64,000 bases of DNA from Paludibacteraceae bacterium (lineage in GTDB: Bacteria > Bacteroidota > Bacteroidia > Bacteroidales > Paludibacteraceae): assembly GCA_017471175.1 (NCBI GenBank), contig JAFUVS010000015.1, positions 184,373 through 248,372 of the forward strand, given 5' to 3'. The position numbers and the translations under genes were made by a program. The notes under the pieces are model-generated. The model searched no databases, had not been told where the DNA came from, and saw only the letters and a list, made by a program, of their open reading frames with translations. Each line of letters begins with the position of its first letter. Position 1 is the first letter of the stretch. This document shows, in pieces, positions 1,795-20,031 of this stretch.

Positions 1795-1819
1795 AACCGC
1801 ATAATTTTATGTAACGCGG

Positions 1820-1851
1820 CAAAGTTAAGCAAGTCGAATCATACAACCAAC
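1820..1851 (-). promoter_or_regulatory. Bacteroidota promoter for the secreted protein at the left edge
   Basis: Read on the minus strand there is a TTG, a 20-bp spacer and TAACTTTG, matching the primary-sigma consensus of Bacteroidota (TTTG / TAnnTTTG). It sits about 26 bp before the ATG at 1794, so the leader would be short. Confidence 0.6.
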
Positions 1852-1973
1852 TGAAAACCTATTATTTTTTATTTTTTTATGCGCAAATTGTATTTTTTTA
1901 CTAAGGGATGCGCATAATTTGCTCCCATTGCATACCTAAAAACGAGTCATCAATTATCTTCAATTAACCATCA

Positions 1974-2610
1974 ATGACTTCATTAGTCCTAATGTACTCC
2001 GAAAATTTGAATATGGTCTGGGAAAACCTGCCGGCGCAATTAAGCAAAGAGAATAAGAAGTTTGTCTATGGTGTGATGCGGGAAGGCGCGCGCAAAAGAT
2101 TTTGAACTTGCTATTATGTGGCTGTATGACTGCGGATTGGTGCTTCGTTCTCATCGTATTGAAGAACCCCGTATGCCGCTGATAGCCTACCAAGAGTTAT
2201 CTGTTTTCAAGCTGTTTATGGTCGATGTGGGACTGCTTGGAGCAATGGCGGGGCTGAACGCGCAAACGCTCATTGGTACGAACGACATATTTACAGAGTT
2301 TAAGGGTGCGCTGACGGAACAATTCGTTATGCAAGAGCTGACAGCTTTATCAAACACTGACTACATTGGCTATTGGACGAATGCACGGAGCACCGCTGAA
2401 GTGGACTTTATTGTTCAACGCAATGGAATGATTATACCCATCGAAGCAAAGTCAGGAGAAAACTTACGCTCGCGCAGTTTTACGCTGTTCTGCCAAAACT
2501 ACAATCCGCATATAGCAGTCAAGACATCTCCCCTCCCGTATCACAGCGGCAAAACTGTCCAAAACATTCCCCTCTACGGGTTGGCGAGTTTCGTAGCCGG
2601 ATGCGAATAA
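1974..2610 (+). pseudogene. Frameshifted C-terminal remnant of a DUF4143-type ATPase
   Basis: Two overlapping frames together encode the C-terminal half of an ATP-binding protein of the AAA_14/DUF4143 family. The first frame starts at ATG 1974 and reads WENLPAQLSKENKKFVYGV, then stops at 2103-2105. The second frame picks up as AKDFELAIMWLYDCG and runs to 2610 through EFKGALTEQFVMQEL and the nuclease-like STAEVDFIVQ...PIEAKSGE motif. The break lies in a GC-repeat at about 2086-2094 and would be repaired by adding 2 bp. The Walker A/B half is absent upstream, so the gene is both 5'-truncated and frameshifted. These ATPases are often strain-specific accessory genes. Confidence 0.8.
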
Positions 2611-2650
2611 AAAATCAACCACAGATTATTCGGTCTGTGGTTGATTTTTT
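2609..2650. terminator. Bidirectional intrinsic terminator between the ATPase remnant and pnp
   Basis: A perfect 17-bp inverted repeat (arm AAAAAATCAACCACAGA) with an 8-nt loop, giving an A-run on one side and a T-run on the other. It separates two convergent genes and can end transcription from both sides. Confidence 0.85.
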
Positions 2651-2681
2651 ATTATGTACGTCTCTTTAATGTCTGTTATTC

Positions 2682-5009
2682 TTAATGTCTGCGGTCCAGA
2701 CGTGCTCCGTCGCCATCGAAATCGCGGTTGCGGAACTCGTGCTGTCCATGACGCTCGGAGCGGGGACGGTCGCCGTAGTTATGCTCACCACGTGCGCCGG
2801 TGGAAGCACCGAAACTGCGTTCACCACGAGGAGGACGTTGCGGACGTTCAGGCTCCACATAACCTTCGGGTTTCTCTTTGAGCGCCTTGGCAGAGAGACG
2901 GAACTTGCCTGTTTTCTCGTCCACTTCAAGCAACTTAATCATAATCTTGTCGCCTTCGTGGATGCCGGTTTCTTCCATCGTCTCATAACGCTTCCAGTCA
3001 ATCTCGGAGATATGCAGCAGACCTTCCTTGCCGGGCATAAACTCTACGAAGCAGCCGTAAGGCATAATGGACTTAACTGTAGCCTCGTAGGTCTCGCCCA
3101 CTTCGGGCAGAGCCACGATGGCTTTGATTTTCGCCATAGCGGCTTGCATCGAATCGCCGTTATTGCTGGCAATCTCGACTTTGCCGCCACGGTCATCCTC
3201 GTCAATCGAGATGACTGCACCGGTCTCGGCTTGGATACCTTGGATGATCTTCCCGCCCGGACCAATAACGGCACCAATCATATCTTTGGGGATATAGAAA
3301 GTAACGATACGCGGAGCGTGCGGCTTGATGTCGGCGCGCGGTGCGGGCATCGTTTCGAGCATACGGTCGAGAATATACATACGTGCCTCGTGGGCTTGTG
3401 CGAGGGCGTTCTCAAGAATCTCGTAACTGAGTCCGTCCACCTTGATATCCATCTGGCAGGCGGTCAGGCCATCGCGGGTACCGGTGGTCTTGAAGTCCAT
3501 ATCGCCGAGGTGGTCTTCGTCACCGAGAATATCGCTGAGGATAGCGTAGTTAGTACCTTTGTTCTCGGAGATGAGTCCCATAGCGATACCACTGACAGGT
3601 TTCTTAATCTGCACACCGGCATCCATCAGAGCCAAGCAACCGGCACATACCGTTGCCATTGAGCTGGAGCCGTTCGATTCAAGAATATCCGAAACGACGC
3701 GGACAGCATAGGGATAATCCTCGGGAATCATATTCTTGAGTGCGCGGCAAGCGAGGTTGCCGTGTCCTATCTCGCGACGACCTACGCCGCGTTGTGCTTT
3801 GGCTTCGCCGGTAGCAAAGGGCGGGAAGTTGTAGTGAAGGAGGAAGCGGTCGGTGGACTGAATGAGTGCTTCGTCGATGATTTTCTCGTCGCGGGAAGTA
3901 CCGAGTGTAACGGTTGAGAGCGATTGCGTTTCTCCGCGCGTGAAGATAGCAGAGCCGTGAGGTCCGGGCAGGGGGCTGACTTCGCACCAGATAGGACGAA
4001 TGTCGGTCGTTTTACGTCCGTCCAGACGTTTACCCTCGTCAAGGACGGCGCGACGCATAGCCTCTTTCTCTACGTCGTGGTAGTAGCGGTCCACAAGAGC
4101 TGCTATATCGTCCACCTCAACGCCGAGAGCCTCAGCGCGCTGCTGCATATAGTCAGCTTTGTCGGTCTTGAAGTCTTCGCGAATCTGCGAGAACATAGCC
4201 TCGCGGTGGTGCTTGTCGGTGTCGGCACTGGTAGCCTGTGCGTATGCCCGGTCGTAAGCGTAGACGTGAACAGCCTGACGCAGTTCGTCATCGTTAATCT
4301 CGTGGCAGTACTCGCGCTTCACCTCCTTGCCGTATTCGCGCATCATTTCTATTTGGGCGCGGCACTGAGGTTTGATGGCTTCGTGAGCGGCTTTGATGGC
4401 ATCGAGCATCACGCTTTCGGGCACTTCTTTCATTTCGCCCTCTACCATCATAATGTTATCTTCAGTAGCAGCCACAACTAATTCGAGGTCAGCGTGTTCG
4501 CACTGCTCGAAGGTGGGGTTGATGACCATCTCGCCATTGACGCGCGCCACGCGCACTTCGCTGATAGGACCCTCAAAAGGTATATCGGAGCAAGCCAAAG
4601 CAGCGGAGGCTGCCAGACCTGCGATGCTTTCGGGCATATCAATGCCGTCGGCACTGTAAAGGGTTACATTTACGAATGTCTCTGCGTGGTAATTAGCGGG
4701 GAAGAGGGGGCGTAATGCACGGTCGATGAGTCGCGCTATCAGGATTTCGTAGTCGCTTGCTTTCCCTTCTCTGCGTGTGAAACCGCCCGGGAAGCGACCT
4801 GCGGAAGCAAATTTCTCTTTGTACTCTACCGTCAAGGGCATAAAGTCGGTGCCGGGTACTGCGTCCTTGGCACTGCATACCGTTGCCAAAATCATTGTGT
4901 TACCCAATGTTGCCATCACGGCGCCATCGGCTTGTTTCGCCAATTTGCCTGTTTCTAACGTAATGACGCGTCCGTCGGGCAACTGAATCTCTTTTCTAAC
5001 AATGTTCAT
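2682..5009 (-). CDS. pnp: Polyribonucleotide nucleotidyltransferase (PNPase)
   Basis: A 775-residue phosphorolytic 3'-5' exoribonuclease acting in mRNA decay in the cytoplasm. Visible in order are the first RNase PH domain ([13 protein letters not shown]), the helical linker, the second RNase PH domain ([23 protein letters not shown]), the KH domain ([15 protein letters not shown]) and the S1 domain ([19 protein letters not shown]). The last ~60 residues are an Arg/Gly/Pro-rich low-complexity tail, probably an extra RNA-binding extension. The start at 5009 (MNIVRKEI) fits homologous N-termini; the frame is open further upstream but that part overlaps the stem-loop and promoter. The gene has its own promoter, and a stem-loop in the leader is a candidate autoregulation site. 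Confidence 0.97.
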
Positions 5010-5040
5010 TGTCTTTCTTTTTGTTTTTTGTTCATACTGT

Positions 5041-5059
5041 GAGCCGCCGTTTGCGGCTC
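5041..5059 (-). promoter_or_regulatory. Stem-loop in the pnp leader
   Basis: A perfect inverted repeat, GAGCCGC/GCGGCTC with a 5-nt loop, lies between the pnp promoter and its start codon, so it should be in the pnp 5' UTR. In E. coli a pnp leader stem cut by RNase III allows PNPase to repress its own synthesis. A similar role here is inference. Confidence 0.5.
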
Positions 5060-5089
5060 GAAACTGTTTTTGACCCGTAAAAAGCCGCG

Positions 5090-5121
5090 CAAAATTACGG
5101 CGGTTTTCGTATTTGCACAAA
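5090..5121 (-). promoter_or_regulatory. Promoter of pnp
   Basis: On the minus strand: TTG, a 20-bp spacer, then TAATTTTG (TAnnTTTG). It lies about 80 bp upstream of the pnp start. Confidence 0.6.
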
Positions 5122-5275
5122 TTTATTTTACATTCTGCTTGTTTTTAGGCATTTCTCACGTATTTCAAGAAAAGAGAACCGGTCGTCAATTTGATTTTTC
5201 TTGGTCACCAATTACCAACAATTTACCATCAATTATTTTTCTTCTACGGATAGTATGATGAAAAACACTGTTGAA

Positions 5276-5842
5276 TTATGTAAAATTCAGACCATACCGA
5301 TGCTTTCCTATTGTCTGCTCCCAGATAAGCCACATCAGGAAAATGACAAAATAGAAGAGGTACTTGAACAGATAGTTATGGAAGAGGTGGAAGAGTTCGG
5401 GATGGGGCTGCATAATGAGACTGATCCAATAGATTCGCAAGATATTAAAGCCATAGATAATCCCCCAGCCGAGCGGTATATACCATAGTTTGTGCTTCCA
5501 CGCTCCGCTTGCGGTCAGCATCAGACACAGCCAGATGAACGACTGCTTGACGGGCGTACATCCCCATACAATATGATTGCCATGTCCTTCAGGGAAACGG
5601 ATGACATTATCCACTAACGTAATGCCTTCGCGGGTCAGACAGAGCAGCCGTTGGACAGCCGTCGCCGTATGGTGCGCCAATGCCTCAAAGAAAGGCGTGA
5701 CGGTCATTCCCCACAGCGTTACATCCCCTACCCCTGCATCGTCCCCGTGGACCGACAGTTTCCATACCGTATCTGCCGCCACAAGCGTGACGGCAAATAC
5801 GATAAATCCTCTATAAGGAGTCAATGAACGGGGAAAAGTCAT
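5276..5842 (-). CDS. Exosortase/archaeosortase-family membrane protein
   Basis: A 188-residue polytopic membrane protein with the exosortase catalytic triad: Cys95 in WGCTPVKQSF, Arg136 in NILRIYW and His152 or His155 in LFHLFHNYLF. Exosortases are integral membrane transpeptidases that recognise C-terminal tripartite sorting tails and attach proteins to the envelope. The protein is short compared with proteobacterial EpsH and resembles the compact forms of Bacteroidota. It starts 2 bp after the GH106-like lipoprotein gene stop, so the two are co-transcribed and probably translationally coupled. I saw no neighbouring protein with an obvious sorting tail, so the substrate is unknown. Confidence 0.8.
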   Translation of the reverse strand: MTFPRSLTPYRGFIVFAVTLVAADTVWKLSVHGDDAGVGDVTLWGMTVTPFFEALAHHTATAVQRLLCLTREGITLVDNVIRFPEGHGNHIVWGCTPVKQSFIWLCLMLTASGAWKHKLWYIPLGWGIIYGFNILRIYWISLIMQPHPELFHLFHNYLFKYLFYFVIFLMWLIWEQTIGKHRYGLNFT

Positions 5843-5844
5843 CG

Positions 5845-7839
5845 TTATTCGGCAGGCAGATGAGGAGCCGTGTAGTCAAGGTCAAGGTACTCCACCCCGC
5901 TGTCAGTAACGTGCAACATCAGCGACTCGTTGGGGCGGAAACGCAGGGTGAGTTCATCCGTTCGGTCGTGGTGATTGACGCGGATGGTGCGCTCGCTGCC
6001 TTGATCGGTGAAAGCATACTCATACGCGAGCGGGTACTCAATGGTCTGCGTCATCGGATTAGCCACGAACACAAAGTATTCATCGCCGTCCTGACGAACC
6101 CAGAAGTCAGGCAGGTTATCACCCTCGATGAGCGGCAGTTGTTTTTCTAATCGGGCTGCATCGCGTGTAACGGTAGGTTGAGCCGACAATGCAGTCAAAG
6201 CCGCAGCATACGCCTCGGTATGCTTTACCTTGCCGGGTTCTTTCGGTTCGCGACCAAGATAGATGGGCAGACCTTCCGAAGCAAGGCGCACGATGGTCTG
6301 CAAGGCAGTGAGTTCCATATAGTCCACGTCCACATAGAGAGCATTGAAAGTCGTTTCGCCACAGCGCAACACGCCGTCTTCGTAGCGTGCGCCGTTGAGG
6401 AAATACTGATTAACCCACATCGGCTGGCGACCTTTCTGCGCAGCGGGAGTCTGAATATAACGCATCTCGTAGCGTCCCCAAAGCCAGTTGAAGAACTTGC
6501 GCTCCTCGTCTGTATAGGCACCGCCCATCCACGAATCCTCCAAAGGCATATAAACCGCCAAGTCGGTATAGTTCACACCGCGACGCATATAGGTGGAAAC
6601 ACGTGTCATATAGCGGTTGAAGTCGGTGAGTTGCTGCCCTGTGAGGTTGTTCTCTGGGTGCATACTGACTTGGCAGGTGGTATAGAAATAGTTGGCAGTA
6701 TCGCCCAAGTGATTAAGCGGCATACCGTGCCAGATGATTTGGTTGGTTCCATTGGCGAAGAGGGCATCGCAGATAAGCCTGAGGTCGGCAATCTGCTCTT
6801 TGCCCTGATGGGGCGAGTGACCGCGGAAATTATTGTAACGCAGGCTGGTCCAGCCGTAAGCGCAAGTGAAAGTTTCTGCTGTGACGGCATCTTTCTTGCC
6901 GAGTGTGGCAGCGGAGGCGGCAATCTTGCTGAAGCAGGGTTCGTAGAGGATAGCCTCTGTTTCGGGAATATCCACCAAAGTAAAAGCGGTAAGCAAGTCC
7001 GTAGGTGCGCCGCCGCATTGTGCGCGCGAGAAACAGCCTTCGCGGGTGGCGTTCAGAGCAAACGGTTCGTAGAAATCGAAGAGGACATACTTGGAGAGGG
7101 TGGACATATAGTCGTAGAAGACATCGGCATCATAAATCTCGTGGGTCTTGGGATTAAGTAGCATGGTATCACGCAGATAAGGAAGGATATCGTAGCCGTG
7201 TTCCGCCATAAACGTCTTCTCGAAGCCCGGGGTATAGAGATACTCGGTTTCGACCTCCCACGAATCGACAAACAAGCCGGACTTGCTACCCTTGTAGGCA
7301 TTGTGCAGTCCACGGTTCATCTTGTCGGCATAGCGGTAAAAGACATCCTTGTTGAGGTGGTTGATGATGCGTGCTTCGCGGGGATGATCCCATACCAACG
7401 GGCGGCGGGCAATCTCCACACTATCAAAGAAATTGCGTGTCTGGTCTCCATCGGGCAGATCGACATCGGCGAAGGGCCACATCGTTCCGAACGTGAAGTC
7501 GCAACCCAGTCCTAACGAGTCAGCCACGTGCTTGGCTACCTCCACGGGACGTGCCCATTCTTCGGAGAGGAAAGCGGGATGGGGAGTGGTCGAATCGCAG
7601 AACATCGGATAAATCCAAGCAATCTCAACGCCGCCAAACTCGTGATCGTGCAGCCAAATAAGTTGGTTGCGCACATCGTTCGGGTCAATCTCAGCCGAGT
7701 GCCACCACCAACGGGTGTAGGGCTTGAAAGTGGGGTAAAGAGTGGACGTTTCCGACTGCTCATCCACGTGGCGGCATCCTGTCAGCGCGGCTGTCAATGC
7801 ACCAAGACAGAGACAGAAAGTAAGGATTGTTTTGTTCAT
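5845..7839 (-). CDS. GH106-like (alpha-L-rhamnosidase-type) lipoprotein
   Basis: A 664-residue lipoprotein (lipobox ending LTGC, Cys22). The N-terminal RWWWHS at residues 43-48 and the following GGVEIAWIYP are typical of the GH106 rhamnosidase-like catalytic barrel. FVDSWEVETEY supplies likely acidic residues, and the region through IIWHGMPLNHLGDTANYF continues the barrel. The protein is shorter than classical GH106 enzymes (often about 1000 residues) because most C-terminal beta-domains are missing. It is therefore a GH106-related enzyme of uncertain substrate, probably acting on rhamnose-containing glycans at the cell surface or in the periplasm. It is first in an operon with the exosortase-family gene and has its own promoter. 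Confidence 0.75.
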   Translation of the reverse strand: MNKTILTFCLCLGALTAALTGCRHVDEQSETSTLYPTFKPYTRWWWHSAEIDPNDVRNQLIWLHDHEFGGVEIAWIYPMFCDSTTPHPAFLSEEWARPVEVAKHVADSLGLGCDFTFGTMWPFADVDLPDGDQTRNFFDSVEIARRPLVWDHPREARIINHLNKDVFYRYADKMNRGLHNAYKGSKSGLFVDSWEVETEYLYTPGFEKTFMAEHGYDILPYLRDTMLLNPKTHEIYDADVFYDYMSTLSKYVLFDFYEPFALNATREGCFSRAQCGGAPTDLLTAFTLVDIPETEAILYEPCFSKIAASAATLGKKDAVTAETFTCAYGWTSLRYNNFRGHSPHQGKEQIADLRLICDALFANGTNQIIWHGMPLNHLGDTANYFYTTCQVSMHPENNLTGQQLTDFNRYMTRVSTYMRRGVNYTDLAVYMPLEDSWMGGAYTDEERKFFNWLWGRYEMRYIQTPAAQKGRQPMWVNQYFLNGARYEDGVLRCGETTFNALYVDVDYMELTALQTIVRLASEGLPIYLGREPKEPGKVKHTEAYAAALTALSAQPTVTRDAARLEKQLPLIEGDNLPDFWVRQDGDEYFVFVANPMTQTIEYPLAYEYAFTDQGSERTIRVNHHDRTDELTLRFRPNESLMLHVTDSGVEYLDLDYTAPHLPAE

Positions 7840-7866
7840 AGCAACTTAATTTAGGTTGAACAAGCG

Positions 7867-7898
7867 CAAAAGTACGCCGTTTGCAGCTTTCACGCAAA
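7867..7898 (-). promoter_or_regulatory. Promoter of the GH106-like/exosortase operon
   Basis: Minus strand: TTTG, a 20-bp spacer and TACTTTTG, about 28 bp before the ATG at 7839. It is divergent from the promoter at 7939-7970. Confidence 0.65.
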
Positions 7899-7938
7899 CA
7901 AAATCGAACAAACTTAAAGCGATAAAATAAAAAAGGCG

Positions 7939-7970
7939 TTTGTGTACATCGTTTTGTTTCCGTACTTTTG
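7939..7970 (+). promoter_or_regulatory. Promoter of the 5-alpha-reductase-like/OYE operon
   Basis: Plus strand: TTTG, a 20-bp spacer and TACTTTTG, followed by a short leader to the ATG at 8004. Confidence 0.65.
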
Positions 7971-8003
7971 CCGCCCTGAATATACAATTAAGTCTTTATA
8001 ACT

Positions 8004-8810
8004 ATGGAATGGACGTACATTCTGACGGGCGAGTTACCCGACCCGATTCGCGATTTTTATAATTTTTGTTTTATGATAGCCCTGGTAGGGTTGGTTATTT
8101 TTGTTACGCTTTACCACGTGAATGCCGGTTACGGCAAGATGCGCACCGAGAAGTGGGGACCTACTATCAGCAACAAAGTCGGCTGGTGTATGATGGAAGT
8201 GCCTGTTTTCCTGATTATGCTTTATTTCTACGGACTATCGGAAGTGCGAACCGATGTTCCCTACTACATCTTCTTCATTTTCTTTGAGATTCATTACCTC
8301 CAGCGTTCGTTTATCTTTCCTTTCCTGATGAAAGGCGAGAGCCAAATGCCCATTGTCATTATGGCGTTGTCGATGCTATGGAACGTGCTGAACGGCTATA
8401 TACAAGGTTTTTGGCTATTCTATTTGGCTCCCAAGTACGGTATGTACAGTCCCCATTGGATTCACTCGTGGCAGTTCATCGCAGGTGCGGTACTTTTCTT
8501 TACGGGTATGATTATCAATATCCATTCCGACTACGTTATCCGCCATCTGCGCAAACCGGGCGACACGAAGCACTACCTGCCCAAGAAAGGTATGTACCGC
8601 TTCGTGACGAGTGCCAATTACTTAGGCGAAATCATTGAATGGGGCGGATGGGCGTTACTCACTTGGTCGTGGGCGGGAGCCGTCTTCTTCTGGTTCACCT
8701 GCTGCAACCTCATTCCGCGCGCCAACGCCATCTACCTCAAGTACGAACAAGAGTTTGCTGATGAGTTCGACCGCAAACGGCTCAAACGAATCTTCCCATT
8801 TATCTATTAA
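8004..8810 (+). CDS. Steroid 5-alpha-reductase-family membrane protein
   Basis: A 268-residue polytopic membrane protein with the layout of the 3-oxo-5-alpha-steroid 4-dehydrogenase family (Steroid_dh). Hydrophobic helices fill most of the chain, and the conserved C-terminal segment is present (NIHSDYVIRHLRKPG, then YRFVTSANYLGEIIEWGGWA, ending near RANAIYLKYEQEF and KRIFPFIY). Family members reduce the C4-C5 double bond of 3-oxo-steroids with NADPH. In gut Bacteroidales homologs have been linked to 5-alpha reduction of bile-acid intermediates and steroids. The next gene is an OYE reductase 64 bp downstream under the same promoter. Other enones or lipids could be the real substrate. Confidence 0.85.
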   Translation: MEWTYILTGELPDPIRDFYNFCFMIALVGLVIFVTLYHVNAGYGKMRTEKWGPTISNKVGWCMMEVPVFLIMLYFYGLSEVRTDVPYYIFFIFFEIHYLQRSFIFPFLMKGESQMPIVIMALSMLWNVLNGYIQGFWLFYLAPKYGMYSPHWIHSWQFIAGAVLFFTGMIINIHSDYVIRHLRKPGDTKHYLPKKGMYRFVTSANYLGEIIEWGGWALLTWSWAGAVFFWFTCCNLIPRANAIYLKYEQEFADEFDRKRLKRIFPFIY

Positions 8811-8874
8811 AACCATCGGAGTTTTCGGAATCATCTGAATAATCCGAATCGTCCGAATACTCTGACAAAACTTT

Positions 8875-10113
8875 ATGAACGAACTTTTTTCACCCTACCA
8901 ATTAGGACCGATAACGCTGCGCAACCGCTTTATCCGCTCGGCTGCATTTGAGAATATGTGTCAAGGCAATCGCCCCACCAAGATGCTGCAGGATTACCAC
9001 GTCAGTGTGGCTCGCGGCGGCGTAGGTATGACCACCGTGGCGTACTGCGCTGTGGATCAAAGCGGTGTTAGTTTTGACGGGCAACTCTATGTCCGCGAAG
9101 ATATTCTGCCCGACCTCCGGCGGCTCACTGATGCCGTCCACGACGAGGGTGCCAAAGTCAGTATCCAACTCGGTCACTGCGGCAATATGACCCACTACGC
9201 AACGTGTCACTGTATGCCGCTTAGTGCATCCAACGGTTTTAATCTCTACAGCCCTACCCTTCACCGCCGTATGCGTGTGGACGAGATTCACGCGATGGCT
9301 CGTAAGTTCGGCGAGGCAGTGGATTTCTGTCGCCGCGCAGGCTTCGACTGCGTGGAGATTCACGCCGGACACGCTTACCTCATCTCGCAGTTCCTCGCCC
9401 GCAGAACCAATCGCCGATGCGACCTCTACGGCGGCTCATTGGAGAACCGTATGCGCTTCCTCAACGAAGTATTGGACGAGGTGATGGCGCACGCCAAAGA
9501 CGATATGGCAGTCATCGTCAAGACCAATATGTGGGACGACTGCCGAGGCGGCGTTACGCGTGAGGAAGGTATCCGCATTGCGCAGGAGATTGCTCGCCAT
9601 AAGGTACACGGCATCGTCTTGAGCGGCGGCACGGTCAGTGCTTCGCCGATGACTATTCTCGGAGGGGCAATGCCCATCCGCACACTCGCTCACTATATGC
9701 CCGGCAATATGTGGTGGCTCAAAGCGGCTCTGCGTATGGGCGGAGGCAGACTGCTCATCCCTACCGTGCCGTTCCGCGAACTCTACTTTATGGACGAAGC
9801 CAAACGCTTCCAAGATGCCATCAAGGACGTACCGCTCATTTACGTAGGCGGCATCCAGTCGGGCGACAACTGCCAACGCATTATGGACGAAGGTTTCCCG
9901 CTCTTCCAGTTGGCGCACGTGCTCATCAAAGACCCTGACTTCGCGAACCACGTCCGGCAGAACCCGCACTACAACGCCGGTTGCACACGCTCCAACTACT
10001 GCGTGGGACGTATGTACTCGCGCGAAATGAAATGCCACGAGTGCGTCCTCAAAGACGGCGAACACATACCCGCTTCGCTGCAAAAAGAAATAGAAAATCT
10101 CCAACTTCACTAA
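8875..10113 (+). CDS. Old Yellow Enzyme-family FMN oxidoreductase
   Basis: A 412-residue TIM-barrel flavoenzyme. The N-terminus ([19 protein letters not shown]), QLGHCGNMT, and the C-terminal half of the active site ([14 protein letters not shown], then [11 protein letters not shown]) are classic OYE/2,4-dienoyl-CoA-reductase-type motifs; GGIQSGDNC begins the phosphate-binding part of the FMN site. The C-terminal FAD/NAD domain of the BaiCD/DCR-type enzymes is missing, but a Cys-rich end remains (CTRSNYC, then CHEC), possibly an iron-sulfur or structural metal site. Enzymes of this family reduce activated C=C bonds; gut 5-beta-reductases of 3-oxo-delta-4 steroids belong here. Its position next to the 5-alpha-reductase-like gene supports an enone substrate. 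A steroid role is inference. Confidence 0.85.
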
Positions 10114-10129
10114 AATAGATACTGTAATT

Positions 10130-11962
10130 GTGAACAACATCCGTAATTTCTGCATCATTGCGCATATCGACCACGGCAAGAGCACTCTCGCCGACCGTAT
10201 GCTTGAACTGACCCACACCATCGACCGCAAGCAGACGGAAAATCAGGTTCTGGACGACATGGACCTCGAGAAGGAGCGCGGCATCACCATCAAGAGCCAC
10301 GCCATCCAAATGCAATACGCGGCTTCCGACGGCGGAAAATATACCCTCAACCTCATTGACACTCCGGGACACGTGGACTTCTCCTACGAAGTGAGCCGCT
10401 CTATTGCCGCTTGCGAAGGCGCATTGCTCGTAGTCGATGCCACACAAGGCGTACAGGCACAAACCATCAGCAACCTCTACCTTGCGCTCGAACACGACCT
10501 TGAGATTATCCCCGTGATGAACAAATGCGACATGGATCAGGCGATGCCCGAACGCGTGGAGGAGGAGATTATCGAACTGCTCGGCTGCAAGAAAGAGGAG
10601 ATTCTGCGCTGCTCCGCCAAGACGGGCGAAGGCGTACCCGAAATTCTGGATGCCATCGTAGAGCGCATACCCGCACCCAAAGACGATAAGGATGCGCCGC
10701 TGCAATGCCTCGTCTTCGACTCCGTATTTAACTCTTTCCGGGGTATCATTGCTTACTTCAAAGTCGTTAACGGCACCATCCGTACCGGCGACCGCGTGCG
10801 CTTCGTGCAGACCGGCAAAGAGTATGATGCTGACGAGATAGGCGTTCTGCTCCCCCGCACAAGCGGCTCTACCGGCGCGATGGCTGCTACGGGCGACGGA
10901 CTCAGTCCCCGAAAAGAACTGACCGCCGGCAATGTCGGCTATATCGTGTCGGGCATCAAGACAAGCGTAGAGGTCAAAGTGGGCGACACTATCACCCACG
11001 TCAACCGTCCCTGCCAACAAGCCATTGACGGCTTCCAGGAAGCCAAACCGATGGTCTTCGCCGGAGTCTATCCCATTGAAGCGGAAGACTACGAAGACCT
11101 GCGCTCCTCGCTCGAAAAACTCCAGCTCAACGATGCCGCTCTCTCCTTCCAGCCGGAAAGTTCGGTGGCTCTCGGATTCGGTTTCCGCTGCGGTTTCCTC
11201 GGACTGCTTCACATGGAAATCATACAGGAACGCCTTGACCGCGAGTTCGATATGAACGTCATCACCACCGTCCCCAACGTCAGTTACAACGTCTATCTCA
11301 AGGACGGCACAATGAAAGAGGTGCATAACCCTGCCGGTATGCCCGACCTGACCGAAATAGACCGCATCGAAGAACCGTACATACGCTCTTCTATCATTAC
11401 TACAAGTGCTTATATCGGTCCGATTATGACCCTCTGCCTCGGCAAACGCGCCGAATTAGTCAAGCAGGAATACATCTCGGGAAACCGTATGGAGTTGCTC
11501 TTCGATATGCCGCTCGGCGAGATAGTTATCGACTTCTACGATAAACTCAAGAGTATCTCCAAGGGCTACGCCTCGTTCGACTGGCATATGAACGGCTTCC
11601 GTCCGTCCAATCTGGTCAAACTGGATATCCTGCTCAACGGCGAACAGGTGGATGCCCTATCTACTCTGACCCACCGCGATAACGCCCTTGACTTCGGCAG
11701 ACGGATGTGCGAGAAACTCAAGGAGTTGCTGCCCCGACAGCAGTTTGATATTGCTATTCAAGCCGCTATCGGAGCCAAGATCATTGCCCGCGAAACGGTC
11801 AAACAGGTGCGCAAGGATGTGCTTGCCAAGTGTTACGGCGGCGACGTGAGTCGCAAGCGCAAACTGCTTGAGAAACAGAAGAAAGGCAAGAAGCGTATGA
11901 AGCAGATCGGCAACGTCGAAGTCCCGCAGAAAGCCTTCCTCGCCGTCCTCAAATTAGACTGA
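10130..11962 (+). CDS. lepA: Elongation factor 4 (LepA)
   Basis: A 610-residue translational GTPase acting on the ribosome in back-translocation. The G motifs are all visible: AHIDHGKST (G1), DTPGHVDFS (G3) and NKCD (G4). The LepA-specific C-terminal domain ends ...[23 protein letters not shown]. The start is GTG at 10130, since no in-frame ATG precedes the conserved [16 protein letters not shown]. Residues about 241-259 ([17 protein letters not shown]) look like an insertion in domain II, where most homologs pass directly from DEIGVL to the PR.EL segment. It follows the OYE gene by 16 bp, so it may share that promoter. Confidence 0.96.
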
Positions 11963-11964
11963 AA

Positions 11965-12063
11965 CAGCAATCAAACAGCATACCGACAGCAATCAAACAG
12001 CAAACAAAACCGTAAGATAACCGTAGGATAGCCGTATGATAGCCGTACAATAGTGCTACTCTG
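11965..12063 (+). repeat. 11-bp phased tandem repeats downstream of lepA
   Basis: Two 22-bp copies (each begins ACAGCAATCAAACAGCA) are followed by degenerate 11-bp units of the form taRccgtaNga, and the phase fades after about 12063. No gene is visible. It is one of four intergenic tracts in this window with 11-bp spacing. Confidence 0.7.
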
Positions 12064-12165
12064 ACCATAGGGATACGGAATGACTAAGCCTTGATGGAAC
12101 CGGAAATAACATCCGGATGGCATGCTACGGATTTCTCGGGTGTATAAAAAAATCTTGATTCCATA

Positions 12166-12196
12166 TTTGGTAATTAGAAATTTGATTGTACTTTTG
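12166..12196 (+). promoter_or_regulatory. Promoter inside the lepA-lipoprotein intergenic region
   Basis: TTTG, a 19-bp spacer and TACTTTTG on the plus strand. The nearest downstream gene starts 490 bp later, so this either drives an RNA or an unusually long leader. Confidence 0.6.
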
Positions 12197-12203
12197 CCGC
12201 TGA

Positions 12204-12685
12204 AATGAGCATAGTACGCGATGTGCGTATTGAAAGTGTTCTTTTCACGGAATCTATCTACGCCGAATAATCGTGTTTCACAGTCGATTATGGGTTAGAG
12301 GGATTCAATTACATATTGAAAAGGCGTTTATTGACGTTTTGTGTTCTACAACTTGAAACTTCGCAACTTTCATTTAGAACCGGATACAATACGAACAATC
12401 GAGCGCCTACGGGTATGACATTTATCAGCCCGGTACATTGTACGCAGTACCTTGTACTTTTTCTTTGGGTAGTCATATCGGCGTAGGTTTCCTTGTTGTT
12501 TATTTGGTTCTCAGGCAATGCGAAGGCCTCAAGTTGTGAGTAAGCAACACGTGAGGTCTACGCTTTCTGTGTGCATGTGTGTATAAAAGACAATAACGGA
12601 AAAAGCCGAGGCGCCTGAAAGGCTGTAGGCAATATATGTATTTCAAAAAACCGATGCCCGACGGGATATCAGGGGCGGAAGAATC
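12204..12685 (+). ncRNA. Possible structured RNA or long leader (unidentified)
   Basis: No convincing coding frame occupies this stretch. Downstream of a good promoter there is a run of potential stems: ATAATCG/CGATTAT around about 12268-12290, TTCAAT/ATTGAA around 12304-12320, GGTAC/GTACC near 12434-12453 followed by a T-rich tract, and nested GCGTAG/CTACGC, CCTCA/TGAGG, GTTG/CAAC between about 12480 and 12565. It does not carry recognisable tmRNA, RNase P or SRP signatures. It could be a Bacteroidales 6S-type RNA, an unknown ncRNA, or the 5' UTR of the lipoprotein gene. The boundaries are uncertain. Confidence 0.3.
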
Positions 12686-13285
12686 ATGAAAAGATTAAAT
12701 GTATTTTCAGTCGTACTGCTTATGACGGCAACTATGCTTACCGCGTGCGGAGCAAAAAAACAAGTGACGCAAACATCTAACAGTAGAAAACCCTTTGGTC
12801 CGACTTCGGAAATGCCATGTCAGATTTATGACACTCCAAAAGAATTTGCTGCAACTACAGCGTGGCGTGGAAGCAAAAACAAAATGGAAGAAGTGCGTTT
12901 CAATGCTTTGCGGGAAGCCCAGAATATTATCAAAATGAAAGTGCAACATTCCTATAAAGGTCTCGTTAGTGAATACAAGGGATCTTGGGGGACCAATGCG
13001 GGGAACGATGTAGCTGACAAGATGGAAATGGCTTGCGACAATGTTCTTCAAGGTATATTGAGCCAGACCTCTGAATCTTGTATAAGATGGAGTGATATTG
13101 ATGACGACGGTCATTTATACTGCTATATCGCCATTACTATTTCCAAAGAGGAATTGGCTGCAAAATCTGCGAAAGCTGTTAAGAATCTTTTGACGGAAGA
13201 TGAAAAAAGGCGCATTGACTTCAAAGAGGAAGAATTCCGGAAGAAAATGGAAGAACGTTATGAAAACTTCAAAAATGAAGACTAA
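12686..13285 (+). CDS. LPP20-like lipoprotein
   Basis: A 199-residue lipoprotein (signal peptide, then lipobox LTAC at Cys21). The middle region (RFNALREAQNIIKMKVQHSYKG, then a central segment ending RWSDIDDDGHLYCYIAI) resembles the LPP20/FlgT-N-type fold, in which an alpha/beta unit precedes an acidic 'diee...' strand. The C-terminus is a highly charged helix (EEEFRKKMEERYENFKNED). It overlaps the start of the next gene by about 26 bp, indicating an operon. Its role is unknown; the context is a run of envelope lipoproteins. Confidence 0.7.
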   Translation: MKRLNVFSVVLLMTATMLTACGAKKQVTQTSNSRKPFGPTSEMPCQIYDTPKEFAATTAWRGSKNKMEEVRFNALREAQNIIKMKVQHSYKGLVSEYKGSWGTNAGNDVADKMEMACDNVLQGILSQTSESCIRWSDIDDDGHLYCYIAITISKEELAAKSAKAVKNLLTEDEKRRIDFKEEEFRKKMEERYENFKNED

Positions 13286-14066
13286 AAAGGTCTTTTTCGT
13301 TGTAACCATTCTGCCCATCCTGTTGATGGGTGGGCAGGATGTGTTTGCAAGAAGCGAACGTCCCCTGTGGGTCGATGGTTATCACTACGATGCTAACAAT
13401 TCGTATCTGGAAGTCGTTACTGCTACGGGTTGGGAAGTAGCAAACGCACGCGACAAAGCATACGATGAAATTCTCCGCCGTCGAGGTGTCGCTACCGGCA
13501 CAAACGCAAAAGTAACAACATCATCAGGCAATATCTCTGTTGAAAGCAATCATAACTTGATAGTAAAAGCACGTGTCTTGGACGAATATGTAGAAGAGTT
13601 AAGACCCGGTTTTTATAAGGTTTATTTGCTGGTTCAGACGGCTAAGAATCCTATGTATAATTATGAGCAGGTGACCATTACGGACAAATACCCGTTTTCC
13701 GCACGCTGCTTTGTTCCCGGTATGGCACAGATTCACAAAGGCAGCATAGCAAAAGGTGGTGTCATCATCGGCGCAGAAGCCATTGGAGTCGCAGGCATTG
13801 TAACATCTTTCAGTATGAAGGCATCTAATGAGTGGTTGATAAAAGACGACCCGAAACATGCCCAGACGTATGCCGACCGTGCGTATATGTGGCAAAACAT
13901 AGGCTATGGATGTATTGCCTTTACCGCAGCCGTCTATATATACAATATTATCGACGGCGCAGTCGCTCGCGGGCAGAAAAGAATTTTCGTAAACAACACT
14001 GTGGCTATAGCCCCGACAGTCACTTTTGACGGAAATGCCGGCATAGCCATAAGGTATAATTTCTAA
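13260..14066 (+). CDS. Secreted/membrane protein of unknown function in a lipoprotein operon
   Basis: About 268 residues. The frame is open from 13200, but the start at ATG 13260 (or 13275) puts a signal peptide at the N-terminus (KKVFFVVTILPILLMGG, then DVFA). Residues after it (LEVVTATGWEVANARDKAYDEILRRRG) resemble the LPP20-like fold seen in the preceding gene. After a short linker, PGMAQIHKGSIAKGGVIIGAE starts a C-terminal region with two hydrophobic segments, as in Bacteroidota proteins with a DUF5683-like 'PGxGQ..KG' element. It may pair with the upstream lipoprotein. Function unknown. Confidence 0.65.
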   Translation: MKTSKMKTKKVFFVVTILPILLMGGQDVFARSERPLWVDGYHYDANNSYLEVVTATGWEVANARDKAYDEILRRRGVATGTNAKVTTSSGNISVESNHNLIVKARVLDEYVEELRPGFYKVYLLVQTAKNPMYNYEQVTITDKYPFSARCFVPGMAQIHKGSIAKGGVIIGAEAIGVAGIVTSFSMKASNEWLIKDDPKHAQTYADRAYMWQNIGYGCIAFTAAVYIYNIIDGAVARGQKRIFVNNTVAIAPTVTFDGNAGIAIRYNF

Positions 14067-14070
14067 GAAA

Positions 14071-14400
14071 ATGAGAAAACTAATCTATCTGGCAGTCATC
14101 TGCTTTTCGTTGTTATTTACAGGATGCGAACACCGCATCATTGACACCTCCATCGCCATATTCGGAACGGTTGTGGATGCCGACACAAATGCTCCGTTGC
14201 AGGGTGTCTTGCTGACTTTGATGCCGAGTTCCAAGAACCGTTATACAGGGAGTCTCGGCACGTATGAATTTGAAGATTTGGAACCACGCCAATACACCAT
14301 TACAGCCCAGATGAACGGGTATCGCACAGACCGCAAGACTGTCAATCTGGTGTCCGGCGAGCGTGAAGAAGTGATGTTTGTATTACATAAAGAAAAATAA
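14071..14400 (+). CDS. Small lipoprotein with a carboxypeptidase-regulatory-like domain
   Basis: 109 residues. The signal peptide ends in lipobox FTGC (Cys19). A single beta-sandwich repeat follows (IAIFGTVVDADTNAPLQGVLLTL, then YTGSLGTYEFEDLEPRQYTITAQMNGY), the pattern of CarboxypepD_reg-like domains. Such domains act as surface spacers or binding modules in Bacteroidales. It is 4 bp after the previous gene and 2 bp before the next, so it is co-transcribed with them. Confidence 0.75.
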   Translation: MRKLIYLAVICFSLLFTGCEHRIIDTSIAIFGTVVDADTNAPLQGVLLTLMPSSKNRYTGSLGTYEFEDLEPRQYTITAQMNGYRTDRKTVNLVSGEREEVMFVLHKEK

Positions 14401-14402
14401 GT

Positions 14403-14861
14403 ATGAAAAAGTTTTTATTGTATTGCGCGTGTACAATATATATATTATTGACTTTTACAAGTTGTGAAAATGATAAACCTCGTAAAGGAATTGTTACCTT
14501 TTATGGAACAGTGACTGACCAATATGGCGAGCCTTTCGGCGGTGTAGAAGTGAAAATAGGAGGATCTGATACTTCAGGAGGAAGTACCATAACAGGAAGT
14601 GACGGTACTTATGAATTGCCAGTGACAGTAATTCCGACAGAAAAAAGTAACACGATGACTTTCGTTTTGGTTGCTGATGTTGTATATGCTTATCGTTATG
14701 CGATGGGTAGTTTTGAAGTATATGGTTCAGATGCAGCATATGTGGGGAAAGATTATCTGTCATATGTTGCATATGCGCACCTTTTTAAAATCGGATGGCA
14801 GGTGGTTGGAGAACGAGTACACCATTCTTTTCGTGTGGGCATAAAATATGCAGATGATTAA
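14403..14861 (+). CDS. Lipoprotein with a carboxypeptidase-regulatory-like domain
   Basis: 152 residues, with lipobox FTSC (Cys21). One domain is visible (FYGTVTDQYGEPFGGVEVKI, then STITGSDGTYELPV). The C-terminal part (FKIGWQVVGERVHHSFRVGIKYADD) does not fit the repeat pattern and may be specific to this protein. The local DNA is more AT-rich than its neighbours. It belongs to the same run of paralogous lipoproteins. Confidence 0.7.
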   Translation: MKKFLLYCACTIYILLTFTSCENDKPRKGIVTFYGTVTDQYGEPFGGVEVKIGGSDTSGGSTITGSDGTYELPVTVIPTEKSNTMTFVLVADVVYAYRYAMGSFEVYGSDAAYVGKDYLSYVAYAHLFKIGWQVVGERVHHSFRVGIKYADD

Positions 14862-14872
14862 TCAATAAAAGT

Positions 14873-15892
14873 ATGAAAAAGGTATTATGTTATTTAGCAT
14901 GTCTATGTGGCATAGCAATGAGTTTCATTTCCTGTGATCCAAATGGAGCCAGTAACGAGATTACTATTTATGGTAATGTGATTGACCGAACGACGGGACA
15001 ACCGTTGTACAATGTTCTAATTCAAGAAAAGAACAAAGTGGGCGGCAGTACTGTAACCGGAAATGACGGCAACTACGAGTTCACGTTACCGTTAAATGGT
15101 AGCAGTGATGGCAAGTATTATCTTGTAGCCAGCAAGGACAAATATTCGTCTTCTGAGTATGAACTTAATATGAGCAGTGTTGATAAAAACCGCCGCGTAA
15201 AAGTGGACTTTCAGTTGACAAAAGAATCTATCACTTACACCGGAATAGTGCTTGATTCTAAAAACAATCCTATCTTTGATGCGCATATATCAGCTCAATT
15301 TTCAAGTGCCTCTGGTTCTGGAACAGATTATAATATCGGCTCAACTACTATGACGGATGCTAATGGCAAATATACATTAGAATTACCGCGTCCGCATAAG
15401 AGCAATAGTCAGGATTATCCTCCTTACGACCAGTGGAAATTTGCAATAACTGCGACTAAAAACGGTTATCACGATTTGACACACACATTGAATCAGAATG
15501 TGGATGATATGGGTAAGACTATAACATTGAATTTCATCTTAAACAGTAGTAGTATAATTATATCTGGTAAGGTTGTCGATCAAAATGGGCAGCCCATCGC
15601 TTATGCAAATGTTAGTGATGAGATATTTAGTACTGGTACTTGGAACTCAGAATATGGGTATTACTATAATTTAAAAGGATCAAAAAGACTATCATCTACA
15701 CAAACGGATGTAAATGGCAACTACACAATAAGCAGTGTAGGATACATGAGTGTAAATGGATATGTTAGTAGAAATCATGAATTCACATGCGAGAAAGAAG
15801 GTTACATAACACAATATCGTTATCTTACGACTTCCGAATCAGACGGTGGAAACTCATATAACGTAGATTTTAAACTAAAAATTAAAGAATAA
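14873..15892 (+). CDS. Lipoprotein with three carboxypeptidase-regulatory-like repeats
   Basis: 339 residues. The signal peptide ends FISC (Cys21). Three repeats follow, each with the 'G.V.D..g.P...a.v' start: IYGNVIDRTTGQPLYNVLI, YTGIVLDSKNNPIFDAHIS and ISGKVVDQNGQPIAYANVS, each ending in a 'T.dGnYe' turn. It is an expanded version of the two preceding lipoproteins and clearly paralogous, likely exposed on the cell surface. The TAATG at its stop overlaps the start of the decayed lipoprotein. Confidence 0.78.
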   Translation: MKKVLCYLACLCGIAMSFISCDPNGASNEITIYGNVIDRTTGQPLYNVLIQEKNKVGGSTVTGNDGNYEFTLPLNGSSDGKYYLVASKDKYSSSEYELNMSSVDKNRRVKVDFQLTKESITYTGIVLDSKNNPIFDAHISAQFSSASGSGTDYNIGSTTMTDANGKYTLELPRPHKSNSQDYPPYDQWKFAITATKNGYHDLTHTLNQNVDDMGKTITLNFILNSSSIIISGKVVDQNGQPIAYANVSDEIFSTGTWNSEYGYYYNLKGSKRLSSTQTDVNGNYTISSVGYMSVNGYVSRNHEFTCEKEGYITQYRYLTTSESDGGNSYNVDFKLKIKE

Positions 15893-16074
15893 TGAAACGG
15901 TTTATATTTTTTACATAACTATGTGGCTTTGTAATTGGAATCGTATCATGTTCAGTCACAAGTCACAGTGGACGACCTGTTCCTGCTTGACAGAGAGTAT
16001 TCAAAAGTCTGCTATTACAAGCGGTAGTCCAATATAAATCGGCGTATCACGTGGTGTATGCAAAGATAGTATGA
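15892..16074 (+). pseudogene. Decayed short lipoprotein
   Basis: An ATG overlapping the preceding stop opens a frame reading MKRFIFFT, a TAA stop (15916-15918), then LCGFVIGIVSCSVTSHSG with a lipobox-like IVSC, then a TGA (15988-15990), and further open codons to a TGA at 16072-16074. It looks like a sixth small envelope gene of this operon broken by two in-frame stops. The alternative is chance similarity, since the region is short. Confidence 0.45.
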
Positions 16075-16092
16075 ATATAAACATAGACCAAT

Positions 16093-17610
16093 ATGCGTAA
16101 AACGATTATCTTTTTAGTGCTTTGTGCCGCGATGCCGATGGCAGCGCAGGACAGAGGTTTTGATGACTTCGTGAAGAAGCAGAACGACAAATTCAATCAG
16201 TTCAAATCGGACAAACAGGCAGAGTATGACGCGTTCCGCAAACGCGCTAACGAGCAGTTTGCAGAGTTCATGAGGCAGAAATGGGCGGAGTTCCCTGTTC
16301 ATGAGGCGGAGAAACCCGTGCAGGAAAAACCGGTGGAGCCGATAGTGTTCGAGGAACCAACACCCGCACCGAAACCCAATCCATCGCCGACTCCCAAACC
16401 AGAACCTGACGCAGACTCCCAACCGGTGCAGATAGCCGTGAAGCCGAAAGTAGAGGTCGTCCCTCCTCCCACACCGGCCCCCGAACCGATTGCGCCCGTT
16501 ACACCCAAAGAAGAGCCCTACAAGAAAGTGTCCATCGTCTATTACGGAAATCTGATTACCATCGGATTCCCGTTGAATGACAATCTTAAACTGCTTGCTT
16601 TGGACGAGAACGCCATAGCCGATGCATGGGTAGAGTTAGCAGGCAGCCAATACGACATCTGCGTCAAGACGGCACTCGATGCCCGCCAAGCCAACGCCCT
16701 ATGTGACTGGGCATATATGCAAATGCTGCAAGCGGTGACGGAAAAACACTACGGCAAGACGAACGAAGCGGTATTGGCGCAAGCTTTCCTGATGACCCAA
16801 TCGGGCTACCGCATCCGACTCGGTATGAGCGATACAAAACTATATATGCTCGTGGCAAGTCAGTATGACATATTCAGAATGCCCTTTTACACCTTGGATG
16901 GTACGAAATTCTACAATGTCAGCAGCGAGAAAAGCACAAAGATACGGATTACAAATGCCAAATGGGACAAAGAGCAGTCGCTGTCGCTCCAACTGACACA
17001 ACTACCCGACTTGACGAATGACCCTACCACCGAGCGCACACTGACTTCACGTGCAGGCGTAACAGCCACTGTCAGCCTCAACAAAAACCTGATAGACTTC
17101 TTCAATTCATACCCGCAAGCCTGTTTCAACGGCGACCAGACCACCCGCTGGGCAGCCTACGCCAATACACCGGTGGAGCCATCTGTCAAGAACCTGCTTT
17201 ACCCGTCGCTCAAAAAGGCGATTAACGGCTTGAACGAAAAGAATGCAACTGCCGTGCTGCTCAACTGGGTGCAGACTGCCTTTGAGTACGGATACGATGA
17301 CAAGATTTGGGGCAGCGACCGTGCTTTCTTTGCCCAAGAGACCCTTTACTATCCGTATTGCGACTGCGAGGACAGAGCTATCCTTTTCTCCCGTTTGGTA
17401 CGCGACCTTGTCGGACTGGATGTCGTTCTCCTCTATTATCCCGGACACCTCGCCACGGCAGTGGCTTTTAATGAAAACGTGACAGGCGACTATTTGGTGT
17501 ACAACAACCGCAAGTACATCGTTTGCGACCCCACCTATATCAATGCGGGCGTAGGCAGAACAATGCCCGACATGAACAATCAACAAGCACAAATCATCGC
17601 CCTGAAATAA
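16093..17610 (+). CDS. Secreted transglutaminase-like cysteine-peptidase protein
   Basis: 505 residues with an N-terminal signal peptide (about residues 1-19). A charged coiled-coil stretch (residues about 25-70) and a Pro/Lys/Glu-rich linker (about 75-145) come first. The C-terminal domain has the transglutaminase-like triad: Cys423/Cys425 in YCDCEDRA, His452 in YPGHLA and Asp479 in VCDPTY. Such domains cleave or cross-link peptides, or act as binding folds when inactive; here the triad looks intact. Located at the end of the lipoprotein run, it may process or attach those proteins, but this is inference. The native substrate is unknown. Confidence 0.78.
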   Translation: MRKTIIFLVLCAAMPMAAQDRGFDDFVKKQNDKFNQFKSDKQAEYDAFRKRANEQFAEFMRQKWAEFPVHEAEKPVQEKPVEPIVFEEPTPAPKPNPSPTPKPEPDADSQPVQIAVKPKVEVVPPPTPAPEPIAPVTPKEEPYKKVSIVYYGNLITIGFPLNDNLKLLALDENAIADAWVELAGSQYDICVKTALDARQANALCDWAYMQMLQAVTEKHYGKTNEAVLAQAFLMTQSGYRIRLGMSDTKLYMLVASQYDIFRMPFYTLDGTKFYNVSSEKSTKIRITNAKWDKEQSLSLQLTQLPDLTNDPTTERTLTSRAGVTATVSLNKNLIDFFNSYPQACFNGDQTTRWAAYANTPVEPSVKNLLYPSLKKAINGLNEKNATAVLLNWVQTAFEYGYDDKIWGSDRAFFAQETLYYPYCDCEDRAILFSRLVRDLVGLDVVLLYYPGHLATAVAFNENVTGDYLVYNNRKYIVCDPTYINAGVGRTMPDMNNQQAQIIALK

Positions 17611-17640
17611 TCCGCTGAAGCGTCGCGATACGCTATCCGT

Positions 17641-18078
17641 TTAGTCGTCTATACGGACAAACTCGTACTTGCTGTTGAACTCCAACTCCAAGCCGTTGTT
17701 CAGTTCTGCTTTCCAGCGGCGGTCATCCTTTCCCCATTCGGTAATAAAGGCGTTCGGGTACTGTTTGGACACGTATGTACGCACTGCTTCGGGAAGCAAA
17801 GCCATAGGAACGGCACGCTGACCGCAGTCCACTTTCTTGAGCGCACCTTTGCCGTCAAACTCCACTTTGTCGCCACTGACAAAACGTACCTCATACTCCG
17901 TGGTCAAACCCTCGCGCTCCTGCATTACAAAACTGACTGAATCCGAAGCAAAATAGGTCTGAATAAACGTCTTTGCTTCTGCAGGAAGTTGGTTCACAGT
18001 GATGACTTGGTCTTTGGCGCACGCGCTCATACACATACTCAATGCTACCAAAAGGGTAGCGAACAGATTCTTTTTCAT
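17641..18078 (-). CDS. PepSY-like putative beta-lactamase-inhibitor-fold lipoprotein
   Basis: 145 residues, lipobox MSAC (Cys20). The family pattern is the Bacteroidota 'PepSY-like' domain (PF11396 type): two similar halves, LPAEAKTFIQTYF...YEVRFVSGDKVEFDGKG and LPEAVRTYVSKQYPNAF...KAELNNGLELEFNSKYEF. These periplasmic proteins have no established enzyme activity. The gene is convergent with the transglutaminase-like gene and lies 20 bp from the stop of the Na/Pi cotransporter gene transcribed from the same side, so they probably share a transcript. Confidence 0.8.
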   Translation of the reverse strand: MKKNLFATLLVALSMCMSACAKDQVITVNQLPAEAKTFIQTYFASDSVSFVMQEREGLTTEYEVRFVSGDKVEFDGKGALKKVDCGQRAVPMALLPEAVRTYVSKQYPNAFITEWGKDDRRWKAELNNGLELEFNSKYEFVRIDD

Positions 18079-18098
18079 TTCTTTTCGTTATTAAAGGG

Positions 18099-19781: not shown

Positions 19782-19900
19782 TTAAAAACTAATAATTGAA
19801 TGTTTATCTTTTTCTTTATTTCTTACAGATTGATTCTTTCGCTTTTGTTTTTTACTTCAATTTTTCTCTTCTCACGTTTCATCTTTTTTCGTCCACAGAT

Positions 19901-19943
19901 AAAAAACGGTACAAACTCATAGGAGTTTATACCGTTCTTTTTC
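19901..19943 (-). promoter_or_regulatory. Terminator-like hairpin in the Na/Pi cotransporter leader
   Basis: On the minus strand, AACGGTA paired with TACCGTT and AAACTC paired with GAGTTT form a long stem; a T-run follows on the minus strand, and a T-rich tract also follows on the plus strand. It lies about 60 bp after the minus-strand promoter and 120 bp before the start codon. The rest of this 430-bp intergenic stretch holds only the two divergent promoters. Confidence 0.6.
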
Positions 19944-19999
19944 TTTGATTATCAAGCAACTGAACTGATATCGATACATAATTCTTCTAAAAAATCACG

Positions 20000-20031
20000 C
20001 AAAAGTACGCTATTCTATCTATTCCTGCAAA
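20000..20031 (-). promoter_or_regulatory. Minus-strand promoter upstream of the Na/Pi cotransporter
   Basis: TTTG, a 20-bp spacer and TACTTTTG on the minus strand. Transcripts would carry a leader of about 200 nt containing the hairpin at 19901-19943. Confidence 0.6.

Follow-up and report, generated by a model that had tools for sequence, protein, structure and literature searches.

A steroid 5-alpha-reductase-like gene paired with a short OYE-family gene in a Paludibacteraceae genome: probable core of a known Bacteroidales cluster for steroid A-ring inversion

The gene pair and its surroundings

The DNA analysed here (the window, a stretch of 64,000 nucleotides) carries two adjacent open frames on the forward strand. 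The first (8004..8810, +; 268 aa) encodes an SRD5A-family (Steroid_dh) membrane protein resembling steroid 5-alpha-reductases, referred to below as 5AR; the second (8875..10113, +; 412 aa) encodes a short FMN-dependent ene-reductase of the OYE family, a 5BR-like partner. The original prediction that a Steroid_dh membrane enzyme adjoins an FMN-dependent OYE enzyme is borne out, both genes being intact and separated by a gap of 64 bp. Just 5' of the 5AR gene, at 7939..7970 (+), lies a match to the pattern TTTG-N20-TACTTTTG, which we take to be a promoter consensus of the Bacteroidetes type and which occurs nine times in the window against 0.54 matches expected from shuffled sequences. Co-transcription of 5AR and OYE from this putative promoter is plausible. 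The next gene, named by eye as LepA (elongation factor 4; 10130..11962, +) and lying outside the proposed pathway, starts directly 3' of OYE, only 16 bp past its stop codon, so that the transcript may continue into LepA.

On the other side of the pair, a second match to the promoter pattern (7867-7898, -) is oriented divergently and fits a divergent GH106-like gene of the alpha-L-rhamnosidase family (5845-7839, -), itself recognized by a partial profile match. A 188-aa hydrophobic protein encoded at 5276-5842 (-) has, by eye, the look of an exosortase or archaeosortase. Across positions 1-20000, taken in 1-kb bins, the GC content of the two bins of the pair is 0.471 and 0.579, with the other 18 ranging from 0.367 to 0.550; the maximum falls in the OYE bin, which exceeds the neighbouring LepA bin only slightly. 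The comparison was made to weigh foreign DNA as the source of the pair, a reading set aside here, with the proviso that the OYE tree (below) shows exchange between lineages.

The 5AR protein, encoded by a single-copy gene in this genome and 53% identical to the 5AR of Parabacteroides massiliensis, matches the Pfam family Steroid_dh (PF02544) with 138.4 bits (cut-off 22.6; E 2.4e-40). Among proteins of solved structure it comes closest to a bacterial SRD5A (7c83, E 1.6e-54), followed by human SRD5A2 (7bw1, E 2.7e-36); two more matches (E 0.03) are ion channels. In the human enzyme, by the account in PMC7591894, E57 and Y91 are catalytic, E57 polarising the C3 carbonyl of the substrate, and R114 contacts the far end of finasteride. 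E57 (chain position 61, an offset of 4) aligns with E65 of the window protein (codon 8196..8198, +) and Y91 (chain position 95) with Y98 (codon 8295..8297, +); the position of R114 is occupied by L122, and that of F118 by W126. Judged from this alignment, the predicted carbonyl-activating residues of the window enzyme are retained and the opposite end of its pocket is different.

The OYE protein is the only match of its kind in the genome at E 1e-10, and it scores 180.4 bits against Oxidored_FMN (PF00724; cut-off 27, E 7.5e-53). Besides this family, the Pfam scan returned one sub-threshold match only, and the BaiCD model NF041087 (642 positions) covers only residues 2-256, with 161.4 bits against a curated cut-off of 825. 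The FAD/NAD domain is thus absent by both searches, as had been anticipated, and the protein lies outside the BaiCD equivalog, which is defined by the curated score and a full-length match that includes this domain. Members of the cluster normally have this short form: 68 near-full-length OYEs from named loci, with start codons picked by script and drawn from the best 80 of 564 loci, are 395-419 aa long. A reading of the window gene as a truncated derivative of a long BaiCD-like gene was therefore rejected and, the short OYE being the rule, its length is no sign of the shortened pathway at which the original prediction had hinted.

An AlphaFold2 model of the OYE (mean pLDDT 91.0, pTM 0.91) adopts the FMN barrel fold. 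Among its best structural matches are YqjM-type enzymes and two CoA-ester reductases, 2-naphthoyl-CoA reductase (6qkg) and the 2,4-dienoyl-CoA reductase of E. coli (1ps9); 1z41 is a fold match too. H163, H166 and Y168 (9361..9378, +), the active-site His pair and Tyr of this family, align with the HAAHGY stretch of YqjM and are invariant across an alignment of 55 sequences, the window included. The secondary structure of the model contains a segment at residues ~252-300 (9628..9774, +) with a long helix at 277-294, which could perhaps act as a lid or membrane-contact element. Compared with PDB sequences, residues 248-412 gave no match better than E 0.47.

Toward the C-terminus, three cysteines arranged as C370-x5-C376-x10-C387 (9982..10035, +) are invariant in the same 55 sequences, in agreement with the Cys-rich end noted at the outset. 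The 4Fe-4S motif of enzymes of the 2,4-dienoyl-CoA reductase type is C-x2-C-x3-C-x11-12-C; this four-cysteine pattern does not occur in the window OYE, where the invariant C-terminal cysteines number only three in the 55 sequences, and C370, C376 and C387 may possibly form a variant iron-sulfur site. By their first and last aligned residues, the structures that reach residues 400-412 of the model belong to Fe-S flavoproteins with several domains or to enzymes akin to these (6qkg, 6qkr, 2tmd, 1djq, 6l6j, 3k30, 6de6 and 1ps9); by the same measure, YqjM-type structures end near residue 366 and those of the PETN-reductase type near 390.

Conservation of the pair and its dehydrogenase partners

Within the genus, 5AR was found in 24 of 25 genomes, the window's own included, and OYE in those same 24; two further congeners (G249 and G373) stand outside these counts. 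The two genes lie at most 128 bp apart in 23 of the 24 congeners and 525 bp apart in the remaining one. Across the order, 5AR was found in 93 of 393 genomes (E 1e-20) and OYE in 70 (E 1e-60). G124, with a 5AR sharing 94% identity with the one from P. massiliensis (L093), is on this ground taken as Parabacteroides, and 20 of the 38 genomes in its genus have 5AR. When named genomes were scanned with the 5AR alignment, OYE lay within 400 bp 3' of 5AR in 70 of 80 Bacteroidales loci, these being the best 80 of 564 confirmed loci, hence an uneven sample, selected for closeness to a Parabacteroides-like sequence; more than 1300 bp of downstream sequence was available for 76 of them. Pairwise distances of the two proteins are correlated (Mantel r 0.75, with none of 2000 permutations as high) over 78 rows comprising 68 named loci, the window and nine other genomes. 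A chance neighbourhood of 5AR and OYE is untenable in light of a pairing so conserved in congeners and named loci alike.

The histories of the two genes are not everywhere the same. The OYEs of loci L146 (8866-10104) and L150 (8849-10105) nest among those of the window's genus, and their 5ARs do not; similarly, the OYE of G014 (L189) branches from the base of the window-genus clade, although the 5ARs of G014 and G007 are tree neighbours. This discord between trees suggests that OYE has been replaced inside an otherwise retained operon; more broadly, the topology of the OYE tree displays exchange between lineages.

A third gene commonly accompanies the pair, in the form of short-chain dehydrogenases of two types (SDR-A and SDR-B). 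A match was counted if it reached 100 bits, shared the strand of 5AR and fell between 3 kb upstream of that gene and 4.5 kb downstream of it. Of the best 80 of 564 named loci, 17 had less than 4 kb of downstream sequence and were set aside, which leaves 63 for these counts. Both SDR types accompany 5AR and OYE in 21 of these loci, SDR-A alone in 19 and SDR-B alone in 14; together, 5AR and OYE have at least one SDR in 54 of the 63. The bare pair, as in the window, is rare (3/63), and the rest consist of 5AR with SDR-B and no OYE (two loci) or 5AR alone (four). SDR-B is present in Parabacteroides massiliensis (L093) and Phocaeicola massiliensis (L158), and is common to Parabacteroides and most Bacteroides loci; Alistipes-labelled loci have mostly SDR-A, and the one Odoribacter and the three Barnesiella loci carry both. 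Two variations on the arrangement were also observed. In two Bacteroides MAGs (L111 and L120), SDR-B comes immediately after 5AR and the locus contains no OYE match, so 5AR and the dehydrogenase may function without the flavoenzyme. Elsewhere, two tandem SDR-A genes follow OYE (L200:6999-8688, from G011, and L150:10139-11730), perhaps with differing stereospecificity.

The original prediction held that the usual third partner, a 3-beta-hydroxysteroid dehydrogenase (3-beta-HSDH), is missing, and proposed a search for one elsewhere in the genome. Its absence stands for the window's contig, which holds none of the five SDR matches of the genome; genome-wide it does not stand for SDR-A, since a copy from the operon clade resides on contig C2 (125490-126266), and so no nearer to the pair than 53 kb. 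This candidate, the best SDR of the genome, shares 53% identity with the SDR of the L146 operon and contains, by eye, the motifs TGASSGIG and YNATK. In the SDR tree it pairs with an SDR of congener G012 (100/100) and falls, strongly supported, within the operon SDRs that come from congeners and from genus g82, with the four other SDRs of the genome set apart from this clade on long branches. Among the 24 congeners with 5AR, SDR-A lies within 300 bp of OYE in 17 and within 2 kb in two more; it is unlinked in five, the window's genome among them, two of which (G001 and G023) have little over 1 kb of contig remaining 3' of OYE. Relocation of the SDR in the window's genome, rather than its loss, would account most simply for these findings.

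For SDR-B, no match at E 1e-25 was found in the 25 genomes of the genus, and the best match in the window's own genome has 26% identity; the own assembly is 78% complete, which makes absences there weak evidence and the genus-wide absence of SDR-B a stronger one. The 3-beta step itself may accordingly have been lost. A separate case is seen in G012 (92% complete, 6% contamination), which has kept an SDR 80% identical to that of the window's genome (C107:28190-28966; L178, L197) and shows no 5AR or OYE match.

Proposed pathway and alternative readings

Our assessment is that the window pair probably represents the core of the known Bacteroidales cluster for inversion of the steroid A ring. This view draws on family membership, the conserved pairing, the conserved catalytic residues and the presence of an unlinked SDR. 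The further proposition that the two families are those of the gut Bacteroidales cluster is supported by PMC10382948 and PMC9645264, as well as by the arrangement shared with named loci. In the proposed sequence of reactions, the 5BR-like OYE would use FMN to convert a 5-beta-3-oxo steroid into the corresponding delta-4-3-oxo form and back, with desaturation the probable direction in vivo; the SRD5A-like membrane enzyme would then reduce the delta-4 bond with NADPH to give a flat 5-alpha-3-oxo product, and a short-chain dehydrogenase would reduce the 3-oxo group. In the window's genome, this last step would be served by the operon-clade SDR of type A from another contig. That bile acids are the substrate in this organism we infer less firmly than the assignment to the cluster. 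Isoallo bile acids, according to reviews that include PMC10382948, promote regulatory T cells and inhibit Gram-positive pathogens.

One alternative concerns the substrate. The enzymes might have other steroids as their main substrates, such as plant sterol-derived enones, cholestenone or hormones of the host, and would then convert bile acids as a sideline in the hindgut. A complete 5AR-OYE-SDR-A locus occurs in a MAG labelled as sheep reticulum (L153), a compartment upstream of bile entry where bile acids should be scarce, which makes non-bile steroids possible there; a 5AR also occurs in a MAG labelled as yak rumen (L168), whose 4.6 kb of downstream sequence contains neither OYE nor SDR. The SDR type differs between clades, as would be expected if substrates differ, and SRD5A-family enzymes accept several 3-oxo-delta4 steroids. 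Sample labels of MAGs may nevertheless mislead, and the genetic evidence considered here, that of PMC10382948, concerns bile acids; we regard a mainly non-bile role as somewhat unlikely, if a credible possibility.

A broader formulation would treat 5AR and OYE as a general A-ring inversion module that operates with interchangeable SDRs (A, B or both), serving non-bile steroids (for example, plant sterol derivatives) in some lineages; in the present genome it would have become parted from its SDR because other pathways share the 3-position step. We offer this as speculation, and think it unlikely as a complete account.

The unlinked SDR could alternatively signal an operon in decay, in which the pathway stops at the 5-alpha-3-oxo product or runs only in part. 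Such a process would be in keeping with the five of 24 congeners, the window's own genome included, in which SDR-A is unlinked to OYE, even if two of these (G001 and G023) have short contig ends, and with the retention in G012 of an SDR without a 5AR or OYE match. All three frames of the window's genome are open, however, and their catalytic motifs are kept; decay strikes us as quite improbable. Still more doubtful is a role of the pair in the synthesis or recycling of one of the bacterium's own lipids, through polyprenol or enoyl-lipid reduction and unconnected to steroids of host or diet. This notion is compatible with the breadth of PF02544, a family that includes polyprenol and enoyl-CoA reductases, and with an aryl-CoA reductase as best structural match of the OYE, but it accords poorly with steroid reductases as the closest solved relatives of 5AR, with clustering alongside HSDH-like SDRs, and with a patchy distribution (5AR in 93 and OYE in 70 of 393 order genomes, and 20 of 38 in one genus) that is a poor fit to a housekeeping lipid step.

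Taken as the core of an A-ring inversion cluster, the pair has three points of interest, namely its split operon, the exchangeability of the SDR types and the locus labelled as forestomach. Its recurrence over many Bacteroidales families, with two SDR partners and sometimes with none nearby, supplies a list of loci in which the variable dehydrogenase may be probed. Scoring of genomes by an intact three-gene cluster may overlook genomes such as this one.

Comparison with known systems

The closest known counterpart is the cluster of 5AR, 5BR and 3-beta-HSDH genes in Bacteroidetes for bile-acid A-ring inversion, described in PMC10382948 for P. merdae, O. laneus and B. dorei; in P. merdae, by the same account, disruption of 5AR leaves alloLCA derivatives unformed. 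The order of steps given in PMC9645264 runs from 5BR, yielding the delta-4 intermediate, through 5AR to 3-beta-HSDH. Both enzyme families stand side by side in the window as they do in that cluster, and the arrangement of the pair is shared with Parabacteroides, Phocaeicola, Bacteroides and Odoribacter loci; the link to P. merdae runs through related species, with P. massiliensis (L093) as stand-in. The window differs from the cluster in having no adjacent SDR, with SDR-A on another contig and no SDR-B found in the genome.

Compared individually, the window 5AR belongs with human SRD5A2 (7bw1) and bacterial SRD5A (7c83) in the Steroid_dh family and has the equivalents of E57 and Y91, yet differs from the human enzyme in its L122 and W126 (for R114 and F118) and in its bacterial operon context. 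The OYE shares with BaiCD/BaiH and 2,4-dienoyl-CoA reductase an N-terminal FMN barrel, including the fold match to 1ps9, and differs from them in having no FAD/NAD domain and in its three invariant C-terminal cysteines, rather than a four-cysteine motif. A likeness of chemistry extends to Firmicutes, in which the 5-beta-reductase ci2350 (PMC12238238) and BaiP/BaiJ (PMC9645264) likewise reduce 3-oxo-delta4 steroids at the double bond in ring A. These are clostridial flavoenzymes, and BaiP and BaiJ are described in PMC9645264 as distinct from the membrane-associated 5-alpha-reductases of Bacteroidetes.
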